DNA of 64,000 nt from positions 434,001-498,000 of the forward strand of contig NZ_CP025791.1 in NCBI RefSeq assembly GCF_002886045.1, in the 5' to 3' direction. Each line of letters begins with the position of its first letter. The stretch's first letter is position 1. The position numbers were made by a program, and so were the translations under genes. The notes beneath the pieces were generated by a model. That model made no database searches. It saw only the letters and a list, made by a program, of their open reading frames with translations, and was not told where the DNA came from. The DNA is from Flavivirga eckloniae. Lineage in GTDB: Bacteria; Bacteroidota; Bacteroidia; Flavobacteriales; Flavobacteriaceae. Below, in pieces: positions 20,061 to 35,667 of this stretch.

Positions 20061-21227
20061 TTATCCAATGTTCGTTATTCTTTGAAAAGGTATATTCCCA
20101 TTAAAACTGTAACGATATGTTGTATGCTCTTTTGCTACTTCCCCCCCGACCTGTTTTATTACCATTAACATCTTTTTATTAAAATCTCCAATACCATTAA
20201 TCTCCAATATTGGGTACCTAGGGTATTCCTTTTGAATCATTTGGGCTGCTGCCATAATTAGTGCACCATCTAACCCTTTTCCTTGATGTTCTGGCACCAC
20301 ACCAAACACCAATCCCAACATTTTGTTATTTGTTTTTCTCCATTGGTGCCAAACAAATTTTAATTTGCCTATAATACCTAACTTTCCGTTTACATATTTT
20401 AAAACCTGATTCACCTCGGGGATGTTAATATAAAAAGCAACCGGGGCTTTTTTAAAATATGCAAACCAAATAATCTTTTCATCTATTATGGGGCGTAACT
20501 CTGCTATAATAGCACGTCCCTGCTCTAAAGATAACTCTGCCACTCCCTCATGGTTTACCCAAGCCTTATTATAAATATGCACAATATCTTCGGTATACTT
20601 ATCTATATGTTTTAGGTTCATATGCTCAAAATGATAGTTTTTATCCTTACTAAATATATCAGATTTGTACTTAATTCTGTGATGTAAAGGGTCTGCAGTA
20701 TTTCGTATAAAAGTATAATGCTTAAAGTACGTTTCAAAACCATAGTTTTCAAACAAATCCTTATAGTATGATAAATGATAATTACATCTGTAATTAGGTT
20801 CTAATTCAAATCCTTTGGTTAACAAACCCCACCATTTATCCCGATCTCCAAAATTTATGGGGCCATCCATGGCTTCCATACCTTTATTCTTCAACCATTC
20901 CTTAGAAGCATCTAAAAGCATGTTAGCAGCTTCTTGATTATTTATACATTCAAAAAAGCCAATCCCTCCTACTGGTGCTTCTCCATTTTTATATGCAATT
21001 CGGTAGTCTATAAAAGCGGCTATTCTGCCCACACACATACCATTATCCATTAAAATCCATCGAGTACAAACACCATTTTTAAAATTCTGGTTAACCTTTT
21101 CATTAAACACATCTTCAATATCCTTGTCTAAAGGCCGAATCCATGCCCTTTCTTCTTTATATAACCAAGTATGTAATTTAACAAACTCTTTTGCCTCCTT
21201 TGACGTTTTAACCTCAATTAACTTCAT
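20061..21227 (-). CDS. GNAT-like acyltransferase superfamily protein, unknown substrate
   Basis: 388 residues with no signal peptide. The C-terminal 120 residues have the GNAT acyl-CoA signature region (GLVFGVVPEHQGKGLDGALI), and an N-terminal half with MDNGMCVGRIAAFIDY and GPINFGDRDKWWGLL suggests a duplicated GNAT fold. Proteins of this length are common in Bacteroidota without known function. It starts from ATG at 21227 and has no close neighbour on its strand. Confidence 0.75.
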   Translation of the reverse strand: MKLIEVKTSKEAKEFVKLHTWLYKEERAWIRPLDKDIEDVFNEKVNQNFKNGVCTRWILMDNGMCVGRIAAFIDYRIAYKNGEAPVGGIGFFECINNQEAANMLLDASKEWLKNKGMEAMDGPINFGDRDKWWGLLTKGFELEPNYRCNYHLSYYKDLFENYGFETYFKHYTFIRNTADPLHHRIKYKSDIFSKDKNYHFEHMNLKHIDKYTEDIVHIYNKAWVNHEGVAELSLEQGRAIIAELRPIIDEKIIWFAYFKKAPVAFYINIPEVNQVLKYVNGKLGIIGKLKFVWHQWRKTNNKMLGLVFGVVPEHQGKGLDGALIMAAAQMIQKEYPRYPILEINGIGDFNKKMLMVIKQVGGEVAKEHTTYRYSFNGNIPFQRITNIG

Positions 21228-21851: not shown

Positions 21852-22503
21852 TACAATTATTTATACGTTTAAAATAAATTTTATTTAACACTTTTGTATT
21901 GTTATTTAAAAAGTATAGCAATACCAAACATAGAGTAATCTTGATAGAACCACTTTCCTTCTAAGTTCAATATCCAGGTAATTTTACTATACTAAAAAAA
22001 CAAACACGTTGCATACACGATTCAGCATTAGGATACCCCACTAATGCAGGGCAAACCTCTAATTGAAAGCGTTGTTATTTCAATAATAATGTACTACGCC
22101 TGCTTGTCAAAATGAATTACCAGTAGCAATATTAAATGCAAAGACATTTAAGAACCCTGTTCAGAATAAACCAGTTTCTCAATGAAAAAAGGTTTATCGA
22201 AAGGAACTACAACTAGTAATACATAAATCTTGTGCATTAATTAAAGAGACACAGGATGAATCAAACTCAAAAAAAGTAGAACTAAACACTTCTAATTTTG
22301 AGCTAGAAAGAGTATGCTGTAAACTAACCACAAAAAAGAAAAGAGAAATTAAGAATAGCTATAACCTATTCTTAAAACCTAATAAACATACACATTCAAG
22401 AAGATAGCCATGTGCTATAACGCCCCCTTCTTTATGGTTATAGTGAATGTTTTCTCGAAAATAGAAAACAACAAACCGCAATATATAAACACATAACACG
22501 ATC

Positions 22504-25500
22504 ATGAAATCAACCAACAAAAAGAAAAGAAATTGGGGCATCACTTTCTTTAAGAAAAACAATCGCAAACTTTACCTCATTATCATATTAGCATCACTTT
22601 CTATAGCGTTTAGATCATTTATACAAGTTTACGATGGCACCGCAGGCCCAGAAATGACAACCCAAACCTGGCCGGCGGGAACATTTTTAGCCAACTTCCC
22701 AGAAGGAGACAGAATTAGCACCTACCACCGTAACTATTTTTTTATGAATGGTCAGGCAGGAACCAGTGTTTGGGATATTTCCAATCCCACAGCACCAAAA
22801 AGAATACAATTTAGTAATGCAGCAAATAACGGTCATCGGTGGTGGAAACTGGAAGGCGATTTATTCTACAGGGAATATTCGGTACCAGAAGTTCAAGGAA
22901 CCGGATATAAATACCTCGATATTTCCAATGTGCTGGACAGAAAACCTGTAACCGCCTCAAGTATTTTATACAACGTAAACGATGGTCAGTCAAACTATGA
23001 CAATCTGGAAACATTTCCACACACTATAGACGGCAGCCGGGTTTTTGACATGAGAACTGGAGTACAGGTAGACGACATCCCCACTACTGTAGCTCTCCCA
23101 GACATTGTAGTACGCATTGGAAACTATGTTTTTTATGCCCCCCAAACCGGAGCCATTAGCGTATTTGATTTCGGAGATCCATTAAATATTAAATTCTTGG
23201 GATCGTTTGGTGGTAATGTACCACACGAGCAATATAGCACAGCAATCCAGTTATGGAGAAACCATCTTGTCTTTATGAGTGGTAACCAAGGCCCTGATGC
23301 TTTGGTAGGTTTCAATATTAGCGACCCCACCAATGTAACCAAAAGCTTTAGTTTACATTCCGATCAAATTACTTTAGGAAGGTATATGATTTTTCAGGAT
23401 GAATACGGATTCTCCGGACGATTTGACCGCGGCGTAAAGTTTAATTTTGAAACGATGCAGATCGCACAGGAATTTATACCGCCGTCTAGTGATGAAACGG
23501 TTCAGTTTATAGACAACCAATGGATGCCAATCGGCCATATTCTCGTTGCTAGCGGAGATGACAAAACCTCTATTTTCACACATCAAGACGGGTTAGACAT
23601 AAAACCGCCAACAGTGGGGCATCATTTTCCAGTATCGGGAGCAATAAATCAGCCACAAACCACCACATTAGGTTTTGTGATCAACGAAACCCTTAATGAT
23701 TTAACTGTAAACGACCAAACCATACAAGTAAGTCCATTAGGAGGCGCTCCTATCCAAGGCGATGTAACCACAACCTCCTATCAAGTTGTTAATTATGCTC
23801 CAAAACAAGCCTTGTTGCCAAACACCACATACGAAGTAAAATTTGTTGAGGGCGGTATAAAAGATGCCGTAGGAAACGGTATGGAAGAATACATCTTTTA
23901 TTTTACTACAGGAGGTGATACCACAAATCAATCTCCACAAATTACAGGGATTAATTTAAGCACCCCTTCCCCTATTACCATAAGTACCGGAGTAAATTTT
24001 ACTGCCAATGCTACAGACGCCGATGGAAACACACTGACCTATAGATGGGATTTTGGAGATGGTTCTCCAAAAACAGGATGGATCGGCAATACAACATCCC
24101 ATACCTACACCGAAGCCGGGAATTATTTAGTTCAGGTACAGGTATCAGATAATAATGGAGGGTTTATAGTCGGATCACAATCTATAGTTGTTGTACCAAA
24201 TTTACCTGTAAACTTACCTACGCAATCCGGGCCTATAACTGTAGATGCCACGAATAGAATTGTTTGGTCCGTTAATCCGGACAATAATACTGTAGCCCGA
24301 GTTAATGCAGATAACCTAACAAAAATCAACGAAGTAGCTGTTGGAAAAGACCCGGTAAATGTGGCTTTAGATGGTACGGGAAAAGCATGGATTACCTGTA
24401 GAGACTCCGATGAAGTCTACATTCTTAATACAAACGGTTCATTTCAAACCAAAATAGTTTTACCCAAAGGATCTCGCCCTTATGGTATCGTTTTCACTCC
24501 AGATGGCACGAGAGGCTTTATATCTGCCTTCGGATCGGGTAAACTTATAGAAGTTTCTCCTTCTACAAATACAATAACCAACACTATCGATATTGGCCCA
24601 ACACCAAGAGCTCTGGCAGTTACCAGCGATGGATCAAAATTGTTTGTAACCCGATTCATTTCACCAGATCTAGAAGGACAGGTTTGGGAAATCAACCTAA
24701 ATACATTCGCACTTACTAAAACCATTCCACTAGCCCTGGATAATTTTACAGTAGATAACGGAAATGCGGGCAGAGGCTTACCAAATTATGTGGCAGGAAT
24801 AGCCATTAACCCAGATAACTCATCAGCCTGGTCTGTAGCCAAAAAAGATAATATTCTTAGGGGACTTGCCAGAGATGGAAAACCTATGACTTTTGATAAC
24901 GCTGTTCGTACGGCAATCTCTCCAATAAATCTAACAACAAGCACAGAGGAACTTACAAAGCGATTGGATATTGATAATCACGGACAACCTTCCTCGGCTT
25001 TGTATACCCCAACTGGCAACTACCTTTTCATCACCATGCAAGGCAATAACAGAATTGTTGTAATCGACCCTAAAAAGGGATTAGAACTCTTAAAAAAAGA
25101 TGTAGGCAAAGCACCTCAGGGCATAGCGATAGATCCAACCACCAATAGGGTTTTTGTAAAAAACTTTATGAGTAGAAACGTGACTGTTTTTGATGCTTCG
25201 GAAATGATTACAACAGGAAGTACCACCTTGACCGAATTAGCTACTATTAGTACAGTTAGCAGTGAAACATTAAGCCCTGTAGTACTTAAAGGGAAACAAA
25301 TATTTTATGACGCTGCCGATTTAAGAATGGGAACCGATGGTTACATTAGCTGTGTTAGTTGCCATAGCGACGGTACTCAGGACGGACGGACATGGGATTT
25401 CACAGACCGTGGTGAAGGATTACGAAATACCATTTCCTTAGTTGGTAGAGCTGGTACAGGACATGGAAGGGTGCATTGGAGTGCAAATTTTGATGAAATT

Positions 25501-28299
25501 CAGGATTTTGAAAATGATATCCGTTTCCACTTCAAAGGTCAAGGATTTATGACCGATGCCAACTTTAATGCTGGCACTACAGGGCTTCCTCTTGGAGATC
25601 CTAAAACGGGTAAATCTGCCGATTTAGATGCCCTAGTCGCCTATGTAGAATCCTTGAATGCTTTCGATCCAAGCCCATATCGAAATACCAATGGTAGCCT
25701 AACTGCGGATGGAGCTGCAGGAAAAGCTATATTCGAAAACTTAAAATGCCATACGTGTCATTCTGGTTCCGATTTTACCGATAGCAGTACAGGTAAAATG
25801 CACGATGTAGGAACCATTAACAATAATAGCGGCCAACGCTTAGGCAAAAACCTATTAGCGTTGGATGTACCAACCTTAAAAGATGTTTGGGCTACAGCCC
25901 CATACTTGCATAACGGAGCTGCTAAAACCTTAACCGAAGTGTTTACAACTTACAACACCAACAATAGTCATGGCGCAACATCTACATTAAGCACAACCGA
26001 AATGGCTCAATTAGAAGCCTATCTTAAACAAATTGATGGATCGGAATCGGCACTAGCAACACAACAAATATTAAAAATAGCCAGTCCAATTGACGGAACA
26101 AACATCGACAAAGCCGATCCTATAAAACTAAGTGTTGAAACAAATTTAACTGGGGTTACAAAAATTGAATACTATGTAGACAATACCCTAATTGAGGCAG
26201 TAACTACAGCACCATTTGAATCTTTATGGACTCCAATAATTTGGAAGACATATACCATTTCTGCTAAGGTATTTTATAATAATGGTCATACTGCCTCAAT
26301 AACCCCAGATATAAAAGTAAAGTATAAGAATACTATAGAAGTTATGTTTGTTGTAGGCGATAAGAATAACTTAACCCTAGAAGATCAAAAAATAAAATCG
26401 AGGTTAGAACAACTGTTCGGTTTCCAAATAACGTTGTTCTCTGATGAAGAATCCACAAGCCCACAATCTGCCAACCCATTTGATATGGCATTAATATCTT
26501 CTACCGTAGATCCCAGAGAATTAGGGAATGATTTAGAAGCTGCCAAAGTGCCACTAATGACCTGGAATCCGTTTATGTATGGTAAACTAAAAATGACAAC
26601 GGGAGGATTAAACACCGGATACGGATTTACACAAAATGGATTTTCCACAATTACCGTTTCAAACCCTACACATCCTATGGCGGCAAGTGTGGGTGCCAGT
26701 ACAGCTTTGTATTCCATAACACAAGCTCTGCCATTTGGGAAACCAACAACAGAAGCCATTGTTATAGCCAAGGCCGGAACGCAACCCATTCTTTTTGGCT
26801 ATGAAGCAAGTATTGCTATTACTTCAAGACGCGTGGCTTTCCCTCTAAGAGATCAGTTTATGCATCTGCTTACTGCTGATGGACTCAAAATGTTTGACGC
26901 CGCCGTATTATGGACGCTTCATGGTGGAGATGCTACTACCCCTATTGCTCCATTACCGGATGTTTATTTTGAATCTCCTGTAGATGGTCAAATGGTAAAT
27001 ACACCGCTAAATATCAAGTTTAAAACCGAAGGCTGGAGCATTCCCTCTCAACAATACAAACTCAGGTTCAGAATTAATGGTGGAGACAGAGGTTTGGTAA
27101 CCAGCAATACTGAATTTACAGATCCGACAAATTTACCTGAAGGCCTACACAAATTAAGCCTGCAGATGGAACGTAGCGATAATTCACTTACCGCTTTGGG
27201 TGATACCATAACCGTTAATGTTACAAACAATCCTTTACCAGTAGGCCCAACAGTTACAATAGAAACACCTACTAATGGTGGGGTAATTGGCCCGAACTTC
27301 GATATCAAGTTTTCAACCTTCAACTGGGATATTACCCCTGGAGGTCGCCACGTAAAATATTTTATCGATACTATAGAACAAGGTTCAGTTTTTGCAACAA
27401 CCCCGATTCCTGTAAGCAATCTTGCAGAAGGACTACATACCCTTAAATTCGTTTTAGTTGAAGCCAATGGAACCCTAGTAGGAAACCCAACAGAGATTAC
27501 CTTTACTGTAGATCCAAGGTTTGGCAATTTACCAAATACAGATTTTAGTGTTGAATACCGTGATGATAGCTCTGGTAACTCCACACAAGAACTAAAACCC
27601 TTTTTCAATATTGTTAGTGAATCTGCGCAAAACCTGCCACTTAGCGACTTTAAGATCCGATATTGGTTTACGCCCGAACATACAGTCCCCATGGCTTTTA
27701 ACGTCGATTATTCTCCAATTTCAAATATAACAGGAGCTTTTGGTACATCAGGCACGCAAAATTACCTTGAAATAAGCTTTGCAGCCTCATCAGGTAACTT
27801 AAATGCTAATAGTAAAGCTGGACCAATACAAACCAGACTACATCACTCCGGGTATCAAACTCACAATCAAAATAATGACTACTCATACGATGCTGGTAAA
27901 ACATCATTTCAGCCCCATGCTTTAGTAACACTGTATCAAAATGGTATTCTGGTTTGGGGCTTAGAGCCTGTAGGAGCTATAGCTAGTAGCAGTAAACAAT
28001 CTAAAATTCCTAACTTAGAAAATGACATAGCTACGGGTATTGGTAATCCTGACCATGTCTACTTAAACATGCAAACATTCCCTAATCCTGTTACGCATCA
28101 TTTAACACTGCAAGGCAACAAAAATCTTAAAGGTGCCATGATTACTATCATGAACCTTTCAGGAAAAGTGATCCATATGCAAAACGTTAAGCAATCAGGA
28201 ACACGAGCATACGTAGATATGAACGCTATGATTCCGGGAATATATTTCGTTAAAATTAAACACGACAAGAACGTTCTTATTAAAAAAATAGTCAAATAA
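22504..28299 (+). CDS. Giant secreted multidomain protein: beta-propellers, PKD, diheme cytochrome c, Ig-like, CBM3 and T9SS tail
   Basis: 1931 residues. In order: a basic leader and hydrophobic signal (about 1-40); an LVIVD-like propeller (about 45-365); an Ig-like SbsA-type domain (about 366-475); a PKD domain (480-560, WDFGDGSPKTGW); a YVTN-type propeller (565-915); a diheme cytochrome region with CVSCH (950-954) and CHTCH (1082-1086) and the peroxidase-like TAPYLHNGAAKTLTEVF; an Ig-like domain; a ThuA/glutamine-amidotransferase-like fold (1280-1475); two Ig-like domains; a CBM3 carbohydrate-binding module (about 1680-1820); and a type IX secretion tail (FPNPV near 1860 to 1931). It should be exported to the cell surface. 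The function is probably redox chemistry on a bound polysaccharide, which is inference. Confidence 0.85.
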   Translation: MKSTNKKKRNWGITFFKKNNRKLYLIIILASLSIAFRSFIQVYDGTAGPEMTTQTWPAGTFLANFPEGDRISTYHRNYFFMNGQAGTSVWDISNPTAPKRIQFSNAANNGHRWWKLEGDLFYREYSVPEVQGTGYKYLDISNVLDRKPVTASSILYNVNDGQSNYDNLETFPHTIDGSRVFDMRTGVQVDDIPTTVALPDIVVRIGNYVFYAPQTGAISVFDFGDPLNIKFLGSFGGNVPHEQYSTAIQLWRNHLVFMSGNQGPDALVGFNISDPTNVTKSFSLHSDQITLGRYMIFQDEYGFSGRFDRGVKFNFETMQIAQEFIPPSSDETVQFIDNQWMPIGHILVASGDDKTSIFTHQDGLDIKPPTVGHHFPVSGAINQPQTTTLGFVINETLNDLTVNDQTIQVSPLGGAPIQGDVTTTSYQVVNYAPKQALLPNTTYEVKFVEGGIKDAVGNGMEEYIFYFTTGGDTTNQSPQITGINLSTPSPITISTGVNFTANATDADGNTLTYRWDFGDGSPKTGWIGNTTSHTYTEAGNYLVQVQVSDNNGGFIVGSQSIVVVPNLPVNLPTQSGPITVDATNRIVWSVNPDNNTVARVNADNLTKINEVAVGKDPVNVALDGTGKAWITCRDSDEVYILNTNGSFQTKIVLPKGSRPYGIVFTPDGTRGFISAFGSGKLIEVSPSTNTITNTIDIGPTPRALAVTSDGSKLFVTRFISPDLEGQVWEINLNTFALTKTIPLALDNFTVDNGNAGRGLPNYVAGIAINPDNSSAWSVAKKDNILRGLARDGKPMTFDNAVRTAISPINLTTSTEELTKRLDIDNHGQPSSALYTPTGNYLFITMQGNNRIVVIDPKKGLELLKKDVGKAPQGIAIDPTTNRVFVKNFMSRNVTVFDASEMITTGSTTLTELATISTVSSETLSPVVLKGKQIFYDAADLRMGTDGYISCVSCHSDGTQDGRTWDFTDRGEGLRNTISLVGRAGTGHGRVHWSANFDEIQDFENDIRFHFKGQGFMTDANFNAGTTGLPLGDPKTGKSADLDALVAYVESLNAFDPSPYRNTNGSLTADGAAGKAIFENLKCHTCHSGSDFTDSSTGKMHDVGTINNNSGQRLGKNLLALDVPTLKDVWATAPYLHNGAAKTLTEVFTTYNTNNSHGATSTLSTTEMAQLEAYLKQIDGSESALATQQILKIASPIDGTNIDKADPIKLSVETNLTGVTKIEYYVDNTLIEAVTTAPFESLWTPIIWKTYTISAKVFYNNGHTASITPDIKVKYKNTIEVMFVVGDKNNLTLEDQKIKSRLEQLFGFQITLFSDEESTSPQSANPFDMALISSTVDPRELGNDLEAAKVPLMTWNPFMYGKLKMTTGGLNTGYGFTQNGFSTITVSNPTHPMAASVGASTALYSITQALPFGKPTTEAIVIAKAGTQPILFGYEASIAITSRRVAFPLRDQFMHLLTADGLKMFDAAVLWTLHGGDATTPIAPLPDVYFESPVDGQMVNTPLNIKFKTEGWSIPSQQYKLRFRINGGDRGLVTSNTEFTDPTNLPEGLHKLSLQMERSDNSLTALGDTITVNVTNNPLPVGPTVTIETPTNGGVIGPNFDIKFSTFNWDITPGGRHVKYFIDTIEQGSVFATTPIPVSNLAEGLHTLKFVLVEANGTLVGNPTEITFTVDPRFGNLPNTDFSVEYRDDSSGNSTQELKPFFNIVSESAQNLPLSDFKIRYWFTPEHTVPMAFNVDYSPISNITGAFGTSGTQNYLEISFAASSGNLNANSKAGPIQTRLHHSGYQTHNQNNDYSYDAGKTSFQPHALVTLYQNGILVWGLEPVGAIASSSKQSKIPNLENDIATGIGNPDHVYLNMQTFPNPVTHHLTLQGNKNLKGAMITIMNLSGKVIHMQNVKQSGTRAYVDMNAMIPGIYFVKIKHDKNVLIKKIVK

Positions 28300-35268: not shown

Positions 35269-35274
35269 TAATGT

Positions 35275-35356
35275 AAACTTTAGGGGTGTTCCTATATGGA
35301 ACTGAGACAGTCCCTTTGAACCTGATATGGTTAGTACCAGCGAAGGAAAAAGTTAA
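35275..35356 (+). promoter_or_regulatory. TPP riboswitch (THI element)
   Basis: The conserved THI core is complete: GGGGTGTT, ACTGAGA, CCCTTTGAACCTGATATGG, TTAGTACCAGCGAAGGAAAA and the closing AGTTA. The AACTT/AAGTT P1 stem closes it (35276-35280 with 35350-35354). It senses thiamin pyrophosphate and turns off the downstream operon. It is separated from thiS by about 310 bases that hold a dispersed repeat. Confidence 0.97.
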
Positions 35357-35667
35357 GAGATGTATACAACATACATCTACATACTTCTTATATATGTACA
35401 CGGCTACTTATTAGCTGCTGTACTATTTTCAAAGTATTTCGTCTCAGCCTTTAATAGTTTATTAGTGAAACTCAATTTTGAAAATTTCGATTTTACATCG
35501 GAAGAATTCAAAATTGTTAGTTGAACTAATCCCGCTCGTTTCAGTATCTGGCGGGATCTTTAGGTATAACCCTCGAAGTTTACTTCGAAATAAAAAATGT
35601 TTTCTGTTGAATGCCTCGTGGGCTTGCTCCGAGGCACTTTATTCAAACTATTAAAATTGTATTATTT
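35357..35667. other. Spacer between riboswitch and thiS, partly occupied by repeat copy B
   Basis: 311 bases. After the riboswitch come 100 bases with no structure of note except TAGCTG/ACGGCTA pieces that may form an expression-platform hairpin. The repeat then spans 35458-35636, leaving 31 bases before thiS. This is an unusually long leader for a TPP switch. Confidence 0.55.
35458..35636 (-). repeat. Structured dispersed repeat, copy B (inverted relative to copy A)
   Basis: The reverse complement of this stretch aligns with 21297-21484. Stems correspond: CCTCG/CGAGG (35614-35634), CGAAGT/ACTTCG (35574-35587), ATCCCGC/GCGGGAT (35529-35557), and AATTTTGAA/TTCAAAATT (35474-35515). It lies inside the transcribed thiamin leader, so these hairpins may be part of the mRNA. 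Confidence 0.75.

Follow-up and report, generated by a model that had tools for sequence, protein, structure and literature searches.

A di-haem protein of Flavivirga eckloniae with a cellulose-binding module and a type IX secretion tail: a putative surface oxidoreductase of GH48-type cellulose degradation

Results

Architecture of the gene and its product

The DNA analysed here (the window) is a stretch of 64,000 nucleotides of the Flavivirga eckloniae genome (contig NZ_CP025791.1, positions 434,001 to 498,000). Positions 22504-28299 encode a large protein in which a di-haem unit related to cytochrome c peroxidase (CCP) and MauG is joined to beta-propellers, a carbohydrate-binding module of family 3 (CBM3) and a sorting domain of the type IX secretion system (T9SS). 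The coordinates, length and frame given in a preliminary description of this sequence were confirmed. Homologues of 1905-2575 residues occur in Bacteroidota, and their blastp alignments span most of the protein, which indicates that 22504-28299 is one gene and not a chance open reading frame (ORF). Profile matches were judged against the curated Pfam cut-offs and, for NCBIfam, the NCBI cut-offs; 19 Pfam matches were obtained at E<=1. The features are as follows (window coordinates, strand, description).

22504..28299, +, complete ORF, 1931 residues, single frame
22504..22626, +, N-terminus, residues 1-41: lysine-rich start, then a hydrophobic stretch
22633..23598, +, propeller 1 (LVIVD/WD-like), residues 44-365, moderately supported
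23596..23910, +, Big_5, residues 365-469 (Pfam E 2.5e-13)
23956..24162, +, one PKD domain, residues 485-553 (Pfam E 2.3e-15)
24181..25254, +, propeller 2 (YVTN), residues 560-917, by profile matches; a hydrazine synthase beta relative
25261..26058, +, di-haem unit like CCP, MauG and hydrazine synthase gamma, residues 920-1185, by profile matches
25351..25365, +, first CXXCH (CVSCH), residues 950-954
25474..25512, +, putative haem 1 pocket loop with Trp992, residues 991-1003, HWSANFDEIQDFE, from the alignment
25747..25761, +, second CXXCH (CHTCH), residues 1082-1086
25894..25917, +, TAPYLHNG, residues 1131-1138
26074..26262, +, Big_7, residues 1191-1253 (Pfam match over cut-off)
26317..26973, +, conserved domain without profile match, residues 1272-1490; not ThuA by profile
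26974..27537, +, residues 1491-1678, no profile match; looks beta-rich or Ig-like
27541..27975, +, CBM3, residues 1680-1824 (Pfam and solved CBM3s)
28078..28293, +, T9SS type A sorting domain, residues 1859-1930 (Pfam and NCBIfam)

The first 41 residues read as a Sec signal. At the other end, Por_Secre_tail (PF18962) scored 45.8 bits over residues 1859-1930 (cut-off 27) and TIGR04183 scored 42.4 (cut-off 23), in agreement with the type IX secretion tail reported before; such a type A sorting domain would qualify the protein as T9SS cargo. Of two beta-propellers also reported, the second is strongly supported, its family profile matching a solved surface-layer YVTN propeller (E 7e-45) and, sixth among the matches listed, hydrazine synthase beta (E 3e-25). 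The first is supported moderately: the family profile matched the designed propeller Tako8 (E 5e-6), and LVIVD repeats were found in this region at E<=0.001 in 8 of 25 scanned family members. Comparison of the two propeller profiles gave 1%, a value still compatible with a common fold. No PQQ-dehydrogenase family was among the 19 Pfam matches at E<=1, and a pyrroloquinoline quinone (PQQ) propeller was therefore rejected. PKD is present as one domain and not as the several repeats described.

A ThuA-like fold had been assigned to residues 1270-1487. This assignment was abandoned: the region had no match to PF06283, or to any other Pfam family, at E<=1, and an hhalign comparison with ThuA domains, ten in number and drawn from the genome of the window and its genus mates, gave a probability of 2%. 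Its family profile found no convincing solved relative (best flavodoxin, E 0.23). The region may still be an alpha/beta domain. An invariant AFPLR and, further on, HL were seen in 13 of 13 aligned sequences of this domain (residues 1272-1490, window 26317-26973), and its blastp matches were limited, bar a few residues, to Bacteroidota members. The combination of haem unit, cellulose-binding module and T9SS tail that had drawn attention to the gene thus stands, without ThuA.

The di-haem unit

Three profiles matched the haem region over their cut-offs: CCP_MauG over residues 930-993 (28.1 bits, cut-off 25.6), Cytochrom_C over 1071-1177 (31.0 bits, cut-off 21.3) and RoxA-like_Cyt-c over 1123-1148, spanning TAPYLHNG (32.2 bits, cut-off 26.7). 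The two CXXCH motifs noted earlier thus match the CCP/MauG family, and the refuting outcome named in the preliminary description, motifs outside a cytochrome fold, did not arise. In an alignment of 42 homologues, picked out of 75 genes to span the family, both motifs were invariant (C950, C953 and H954 of the first in 42/42, and likewise the second), as were H1136 within TAPYLHNG, the tyrosines Y947 and Y1047, and H991, W992 and E998 of the loop 991-1003. The tandem c-type domains with two CXXCH motifs and the conserved, catalytic-type W992 are those expected of the bacterial CCP (bCCP)/MauG superfamily.

Searched against solved structures, the di-haem profile found hydrazine synthase gamma as its best relative (E 5e-30), followed by bacterial cytochrome c peroxidases, a 'di-heme enzyme' and MauG, with RoxA matching weakly. 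We take the 'di-heme enzyme' to be MbnH, and PDB entries 6e1c and 6nx0 to be MbnH and BthA. Like the beta-gamma chain of hydrazine synthase, the protein has a YVTN propeller followed by a CCP-like di-haem unit, and the two also share an HGxTS.L stretch towards the end of that unit. Membership of the hydrazine synthases was ruled out by score and by residues. The protein stays far below the NCBI cut-offs (70.9 of 625, 66.8 of 1250 and 25.3 of 560 bits), and no Cys is found between residues 955 and 1081 in any of the 42 homologues, so that there is no counterpart of gamma-Cys165 and the third haem bond of hydrazine synthase is missing in the family. Moreover, Trp992 stands where hydrazine synthase gamma has His144. 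According to PMC12758564, His106 of hydrazine synthase gamma is the haem 1 ligand and His144, at the place of the CCP/MauG Trp, lies 38 residues further on. The spacing from H954 to W992 is also 38 in 41 of the 42 homologues which, together with the invariance of W992, indicates that the family keeps the peroxidase-type Trp. Beta-gamma homologues with this Trp are already reported in print as widespread outside anammox bacteria, in a text whose consulted part makes no link to cellulose (PMC12758564).

The loop 991-1003 would line the haem 1 pocket, and its invariant Trp argues for a reactive haem 1; on balance we lean slightly towards catalysis at haem 1 rather than mere electron carriage. As to haem 2, H1156, downstream of TAPYLHNG, is present in 17 of 17 aligned rows of the clade with CBM2 or CBM3 (see below) and in 14 of the 25 other rows. 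Hydrazine synthase gamma carries an aligned HG at this place, and its second haem is bis-His (PMC12607021). Haem 2 is thus probably bis-His, with H1156 as its second ligand in the cellulose clade. In addition, there are two genes for a cytochrome c assembly protein (PF01578), which we count in favour of the reading preferred below.

These data bear on two alternative explanations. One is that the protein is structural or adhesive, its haems only conducting electrons to or from the surface. The large build with many propeller and Ig-type domains and the probable bis-His haem 2 would suit such a protein, but the W992 loop is invariant as expected of a reactive pocket and two haems would be few for long-range conduction; we consider this improbable. 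The other is that the protein acts in the manner of MauG and MbnH, oxidising residues on a partner such as a surface cellulase. Models of the MbnH family and of MauG do match the second haem region. Using the roles of MauG residues as background, one alignment column presumably corresponds to the Tyr ligand position of MauG; Tyr occupies it in just 5 of the 42 homologues. Nor did neighbour clustering, in which small clusters were not identified, reveal a non-cellulase neighbour in more than five loci. Modification of a partner therefore appears distinctly improbable.

The cellulose-binding module and a module shared with cellulases

The CBM3-like region proposed earlier was borne out. CBM_3 (PF00942) matched residues 1683-1757 with 42.9 bits (cut-off 22.4), as expected of a CBM3, and solved CBM3s widened the match to residues 1680-1824 (solved cellobiosidase CBM3, E 4e-26).

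A second module links the family to cellulases. This module of about 128 residues, without Pfam family at E<=0.01, recurs in the window genome's own GH9, GH48 and GH5 (GH, glycoside hydrolase family) and in 26 of the 75 di-haem genes (Aquimarina, Tenacibaculum, Flammeovirga and Reichenbachiella). It is also present in 65 other ORFs of the loci, at least 56 of which carry GH5, GH9 or GH48; this count is rough, as loci overlap and the nine others include ORFs from L084 and L098-L102 without a GH table (L and G numbers are our designations of loci and genomes). Examples are given below.

L084:12145-14346, residues 498-627, the module in the window genome's own GH5
L009:9364-16314, residues 2098-2226, a further example

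The window protein lacks this module and the adjoining PKD run, being 1931 residues long versus 2316 in Aquimarina algiphila. The module is a candidate for a new carbohydrate-binding module, and its occurrence in both kinds of protein again suggests that the di-haem protein is assembled from the same parts as cellulases.

Relatives and their gene neighbourhoods

A scan of genomes for homologues yielded 70 loci, from the best 80 of 336 stretches, to which genus mates (L079-L081) were added. A tree of 70 core sequences (quick search, Shimodaira-Hasegawa-like approximate likelihood ratio test (SH-aLRT) supports only, several long branches flagged; L001, L070, L077, L079 and L080 omitted) brought the members with CBM2 or CBM3 together in a single group of 40 (SH-aLRT 96). 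It also includes L040, in which no CBM was found, L045 and L049. The tree label 'CBM3+cellulase' (L009-L042 minus L040 and L041) denotes presence of CBM3, not adjacency to a cellulase. Outside the group, homologues come from one genus mate and from Pseudomonadota, Verrucomicrobiota, Acidobacteriota, Planctomycetota, KSB1 and Chloroflexota.

At the A. algiphila locus (L009) the di-haem gene is preceded by GH9-CBM3-PKD-GH48 and GH5 and followed by a GH5 with two CBM3 and a GH5 with CBM6. The GH5 with two CBM3 (L009:16886) had no cellulase row in the whole-protein scan; its first 390 residues match PF00150 with 40.2 bits (cut-off 23.5), and the counts below are independent of it. The same core is fused to CBM2 in four gammaproteobacterial loci (L043, L044, L047 and L077). 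In Exilibacterium and Endozoicomonas ascidiicola the core ends in CBM2 near GH6-CBM2 and GH5-CBM2; tunicate cellulose is a likely substrate for the ascidian-associated Endozoicomonas. In L077 (7269-12726), from a gammaproteobacterial metagenome-assembled genome, the gene is divided between two ORFs that overlap, and two CBM2 are encoded in the second; a frameshift, a sequencing error or a real split may account for this. The fused CBM is thus of the family found on the neighbouring cellulases: CBM3 in Bacteroidota and CBM2 in Gammaproteobacteria.

We searched the fetched flanks locally with GH5, GH6, GH9, GH48 and CBM queries. A cellulase ORF was found at 27 of the 37 loci with CBM2 or CBM3 versus 0 of the 32 without (Fisher 3e-11, kinship ignored). 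These were taken from the 75 main genes after setting aside the window and L001, which is the same gene, as well as L079 and L080, which duplicate L042 and L029. Also set aside were L045, whose contig stops short of the CBM region and which has GH9 and GH48 next to it, and L049, which carries CBM6 instead and has a confirmed adjacent GH5-CBM6. L070, inside the 32, is a near copy of L069, the flank of L081 is about 1.5 kb only, and some contigs are short.

The 37 loci include 21 named Aquimarina and 4 Tenacibaculum. This raises the explanation that the gene hitch-hikes, being inherited in Aquimarina-type clusters with all other links due to chance, as might be supposed from the 24 of 27 adjacency cases that belong to these two genera. 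Against it speak the Gammaproteobacteria, with CBM2 and GH6/GH5. Reichenbachiella, two Flammeovirga, A. algicola, a Cyclobacteriaceae isolate and Pseudarcicella likewise tell against it, since GH48 is present in their genomes despite the lack of a cellulase in the fetched flanks. So does the state of the window gene, described below, and hitch-hiking is very improbable in our view.

Some neighbour clusters of three to five loci reach members without CBM2/3: one joins L064 and L072 with L019, L045 and L049, another L073 and L076 with L044, and a third L054, L058 and L060. Related large proteins lie near the gene (L019:3-2054, L045:1608-5828, L049:1-3030, L064:2-2329, L072:13333-15255 and L072:2433-6299), spanning five loci from the two halves of the di-haem family. 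A Verrucomicrobiales locus (L060:771-12956) contains two tandem paralogues of the core.

GH48 and AA10 across genomes

GH48 is a hallmark of crystalline-cellulose degraders. Among 37 genomes searched, GH48 was present in 10 of the 13 with a clade member (L017, L019, L022, L023, L027, G008, L041, L043, L044, L045, L047, L049 and L077, the last outside the tree) versus 1 of the 24 with other homologues, that of L069 (Fisher 8e-6, kinship ignored). Two of the ten, L043 and L045, were already known from the flank search. In G008, which is outside the sample of the window's family, GH48 is on the same contig, about 26 kb from the di-haem gene. Within that sample of 397 genomes GH48 occurs in four (G000, G082, G187 and G329), representing four genera, and a di-haem protein with a CBM3 region in G000, G010, G082 and G329; six further genomes, including G187, have core homologues without CBM3 region. 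Thus three of the four GH48 genomes have an intact gene and the fourth, G187, a remnant.

L098:8727-9449, remnant in G187, residues 20-212 of a CBM3-type gene, in a 240-codon ORF between GH48 and GH5-CBM3

We also searched 17 genomes, that of L016 not included, for family AA10 of lytic polysaccharide monooxygenases (LPMOs). AA10 was found in eight; one of these, G187, holds the remnant only, and in the genome of L045 the di-haem gene runs off the contig. The Aquimarina genomes of L009, L012 and L018 have both AA10 and the di-haem gene. No AA10 was found in the other nine: the window's genome, G008, G010, G082, G329 and those of L019 (Reichenbachiella), L022 (Flammeovirga aprica), L044 (Endozoicomonas ascidiicola) and L049 (Flexithrix). 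Of the GH48 genomes of the family sample G187 has AA10 and the other three do not, four being too few for a trade-off. The di-haem protein itself has no PF03067 (AA10) among its Pfam matches.

These results bear on whether the protein is an electron partner of LPMOs, a bacterial counterpart of cellobiose dehydrogenase. The eight genomes with AA10 would permit such a role and there is a precedent in Cbp2D, whose X183 cytochrome domain can activate LPMOs in vitro (PMC8981238); related Teredinibacter cytochrome domains, on the other hand, gave no electrons to its AA10 (PMC10916295). The absence of AA10 from 9 of the 17 genomes speaks against it, and so does purifying selection on the window copy relative to its nearest relative (see below) although its genome yielded no AA10. 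As none was found there, electron donation to AA10 was rejected as the sole role in the window's genome; more generally we regard it as quite unlikely. The same result bears on the feeding of a partner oxidase, which the preliminary description had raised: this would still be conjecture, and an AA10 LPMO is contradicted as the partner here.

A protective peroxidase would instead clear H2O2 at the cell surface during cellulase action, with the CBM for placement only. The kinship to cytochrome c peroxidases and the conserved loop with Trp and acid fit this, but neither the tie to GH48 systems nor the matched CBM family would follow from it alone. Besides, carriers without AA10 have no LPMO making local H2O2 (other makers were not searched for). 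We judge it rather unlikely.

Origin and selection of the window copy

The window gene appears to have a history different from that of the cellulases of its host. Two features outside the gene are relevant here.

22072..22341, +, decayed 3' end of a GH5 cellulase with in-frame stops (tblastn E 2e-15 to residues 695-784 of 793 of the L009 GH5)
C1:239855-248345 (L084:5856-14346), the genome's own GH9-CBM3, GH48 and GH5-PKD in a row, with T9SS tails, about 210 kb from the di-haem gene

In Aquimarina the counterpart of this GH5 directly precedes the di-haem gene, and the DNA is 69% identical to L009 across 557 bp of upstream region and gene start. The window protein and its A. algiphila counterpart share 84% identity, and in the tree the former is nested among Aquimarina. 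Among 11 other genus members searched (E<=1e-30), homologues were found only in G008 and G010 (59%) and G001 (34%). The GH48 of the window's genome shares 63% identity with its A. algiphila counterpart and 61-69% with the other full-length GH48s compared. The difference between 84% and 63% suggests that the gene joined a host that had its own GH48 system. The gene has 40% G+C and the window 34%; since the A. algiphila gene has only 36%, composition by itself does not indicate the donor. Over 1823 codons compared with A. algiphila, the nonsynonymous rate (dN) was 0.088 and the synonymous rate (dS) 1.29, which indicates purifying selection; dN was 0.065 in the di-haem part and 0.155 in CBM3. An intact, selected di-haem gene thus stands beside a dead piece of GH5, which could be the scar of a transferred cellulase cluster. 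The simplest reading, its direction being inferred, is that a piece of an Aquimarina-type cellulase cluster was transferred in, that GH5 decayed and that the di-haem gene was retained.

No operon was seen at the window locus. As named by reading their sequences, the neighbours are acetyltransferases, a repressor, an exonuclease-like protein and a thiamine operon. A thiamine pyrophosphate (TPP) riboswitch lies at 35272-35365, ahead of what reads as the thiamine operon. The neighbour at 20061-21227 gave matches of 26-28% only in genus mates, so that no empty site was demonstrable, and a repeat search around the gene revealed short imperfect repeats only.

Comparison with known redox proteins

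The bCCP/MauG superfamily, including MbnH and BthA (PMC6405878), shares with the protein two c-haem domains, a conserved Trp and TAPYxHxG. Here, in contrast to those enzymes, the unit shares one chain with propellers, Ig-type domains, a CBM and a T9SS tail, and the supposed MauG Tyr column is not conserved. Cbp2D and Cbp2E of Cellvibrio japonicus are likewise CBM-bearing redox proteins. They are important for growth on insoluble cellulose, Cbp2D having c-type cytochrome domains (PMC12542752, PMC8981238). Cbp2D consists of CBM2, X158 (YceI-like), FN3, X183 and X132, a single CXXCH being present in each of the last two (PMC8981238), whereas the di-haem protein has no YceI or FN3 match in Pfam at E<=1.

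RoxA is a two-haem enzyme that cleaves a polymer. The short RoxA-like_Cyt-c motif is shared with RoxA/RoxB, but the NCBIfam scores of 19.4 of 900 bits (RoxB) and 17.7 of 900 (RoxC) limit the likeness to the C-terminal haem motif. A layout of propeller, cytochrome and CBM also exists in the fungal PQQ-dependent pyranose dehydrogenase (AA12, with cytochrome b and CBM1), which differs in having cytochrome b and PQQ.

Discussion

We favour, at a probability of about two in three, the view that the protein is a T9SS-exported, cellulose-anchored di-haem oxidoreductase at the cell surface, working in the degradation of crystalline cellulose of the GH48 type. A role in cellulose degradation as such is likely. 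The redox role on a bound glycan put forward in the preliminary description is supported by the GH48, GH9, GH6 and GH5 cellulases near the gene or in the genomes of relatives; the reaction itself is conjectural.

Several observations weigh against this view. Every Bacteroidota adjacency case is Aquimarina or Tenacibaculum and the three others of the 27 are Exilibacterium (two) and Endozoicomonas; this dominance of two genera means that the 27 of 37 overstates independence. No cellulase ORF was found in the fetched flanks of 10 of the 37 CBM2/3-bearing loci, nor in the window. GH48 was not found in the genomes of L044 (Endozoicomonas, with GH6 and GH5 beside the gene), L049 and L077, and the contrast for GH9 is weaker, 12 of 14 clade genomes (the 13 tested for GH48 plus G010; L043 and L044 lack it) versus 6 of 24 others. 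G010 carries the gene and GH9 without GH48; conversely, G187 has GH48 yet only an N-terminal remnant of a CBM3-type gene. The same core occurs without CBM2/3 and without cellulase neighbours in Verrucomicrobiota, Acidobacteriota and others, so that its basic chemistry need not involve cellulose. Finally, position 1784, presumably the planar-strip aromatic of CBM3 for crystalline cellulose, is Tyr in the window protein and Tyr or Phe in 36 of 38 CBM3s of the di-haem family, versus Trp in 38 of 42 cellulase-linked CBM3s, and cellulose binding may therefore be weaker or different.

On the favoured view, the T9SS would export the protein and the CBM would hold it on cellulose at the cell surface, export and anchoring both being deduced from the domains. 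Haem 2 (probably bis-His, with H1156) would pass electrons to or from haem 1, which would activate H2O2 or O2 beside Trp992, as in CCP/MauG enzymes. This would confine the chemistry to the surface of the cellulose and oxidise either the polymer itself or a partner nearby, to the benefit of the hydrolases. The substrate could be cellulose, a partner protein or peroxide, with a plain peroxidase as a fair rival. Because no AA10 was found in the window's genome, partnership with AA10 cannot be the only role, which favours a peroxide- or oxygen-activating oxidoreductase at the cellulose surface. Direct attack on cellulose is doubtful. It is likewise unlikely that the protein is a haem-based counterpart of LPMOs, in which a MauG/RoxA-like centre pinned by CBM3 or CBM2 would cleave or oxidise chains with H2O2 or O2. 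If it did cleave cellulose, new ends would be opened for GH48 and GH9 (or GH6) of the same genome, and the persistence of the gene in GH48 systems without an AA10 LPMO would be explained.

A search of the literature, mostly without subscription papers, gave no title or abstract opening, among those listed, that describes this di-haem family together with cellulases. For bacterial LPMOs, no protein redox partners other than Cbp2D/E have been proposed according to PMC10916295. By its sequence, the protein described here is a second design, from another family than Cbp2D/E, with a peroxidase-type di-haem unit on a propeller and a cellulose-binding module. This design occurs in two phyla with different CBM families and cellulases and is kept in genomes that yielded no AA10. 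Its probable role in bacterial cellulose degradation is that of a so far unrecognised redox helper, or perhaps even of an oxidative attacker. It bears on two questions: by what means crystalline cellulose is opened in bacteria lacking LPMOs, and which part redox proteins play where LPMOs are present. Residues H954, W992, H1136 and H1156 and the host genomes are offered for a direct test. Should the protein act on cellulose, biomass breakdown would gain a new chemistry; as an electron carrier or a peroxidase it would still define a missing part of GH48 systems.

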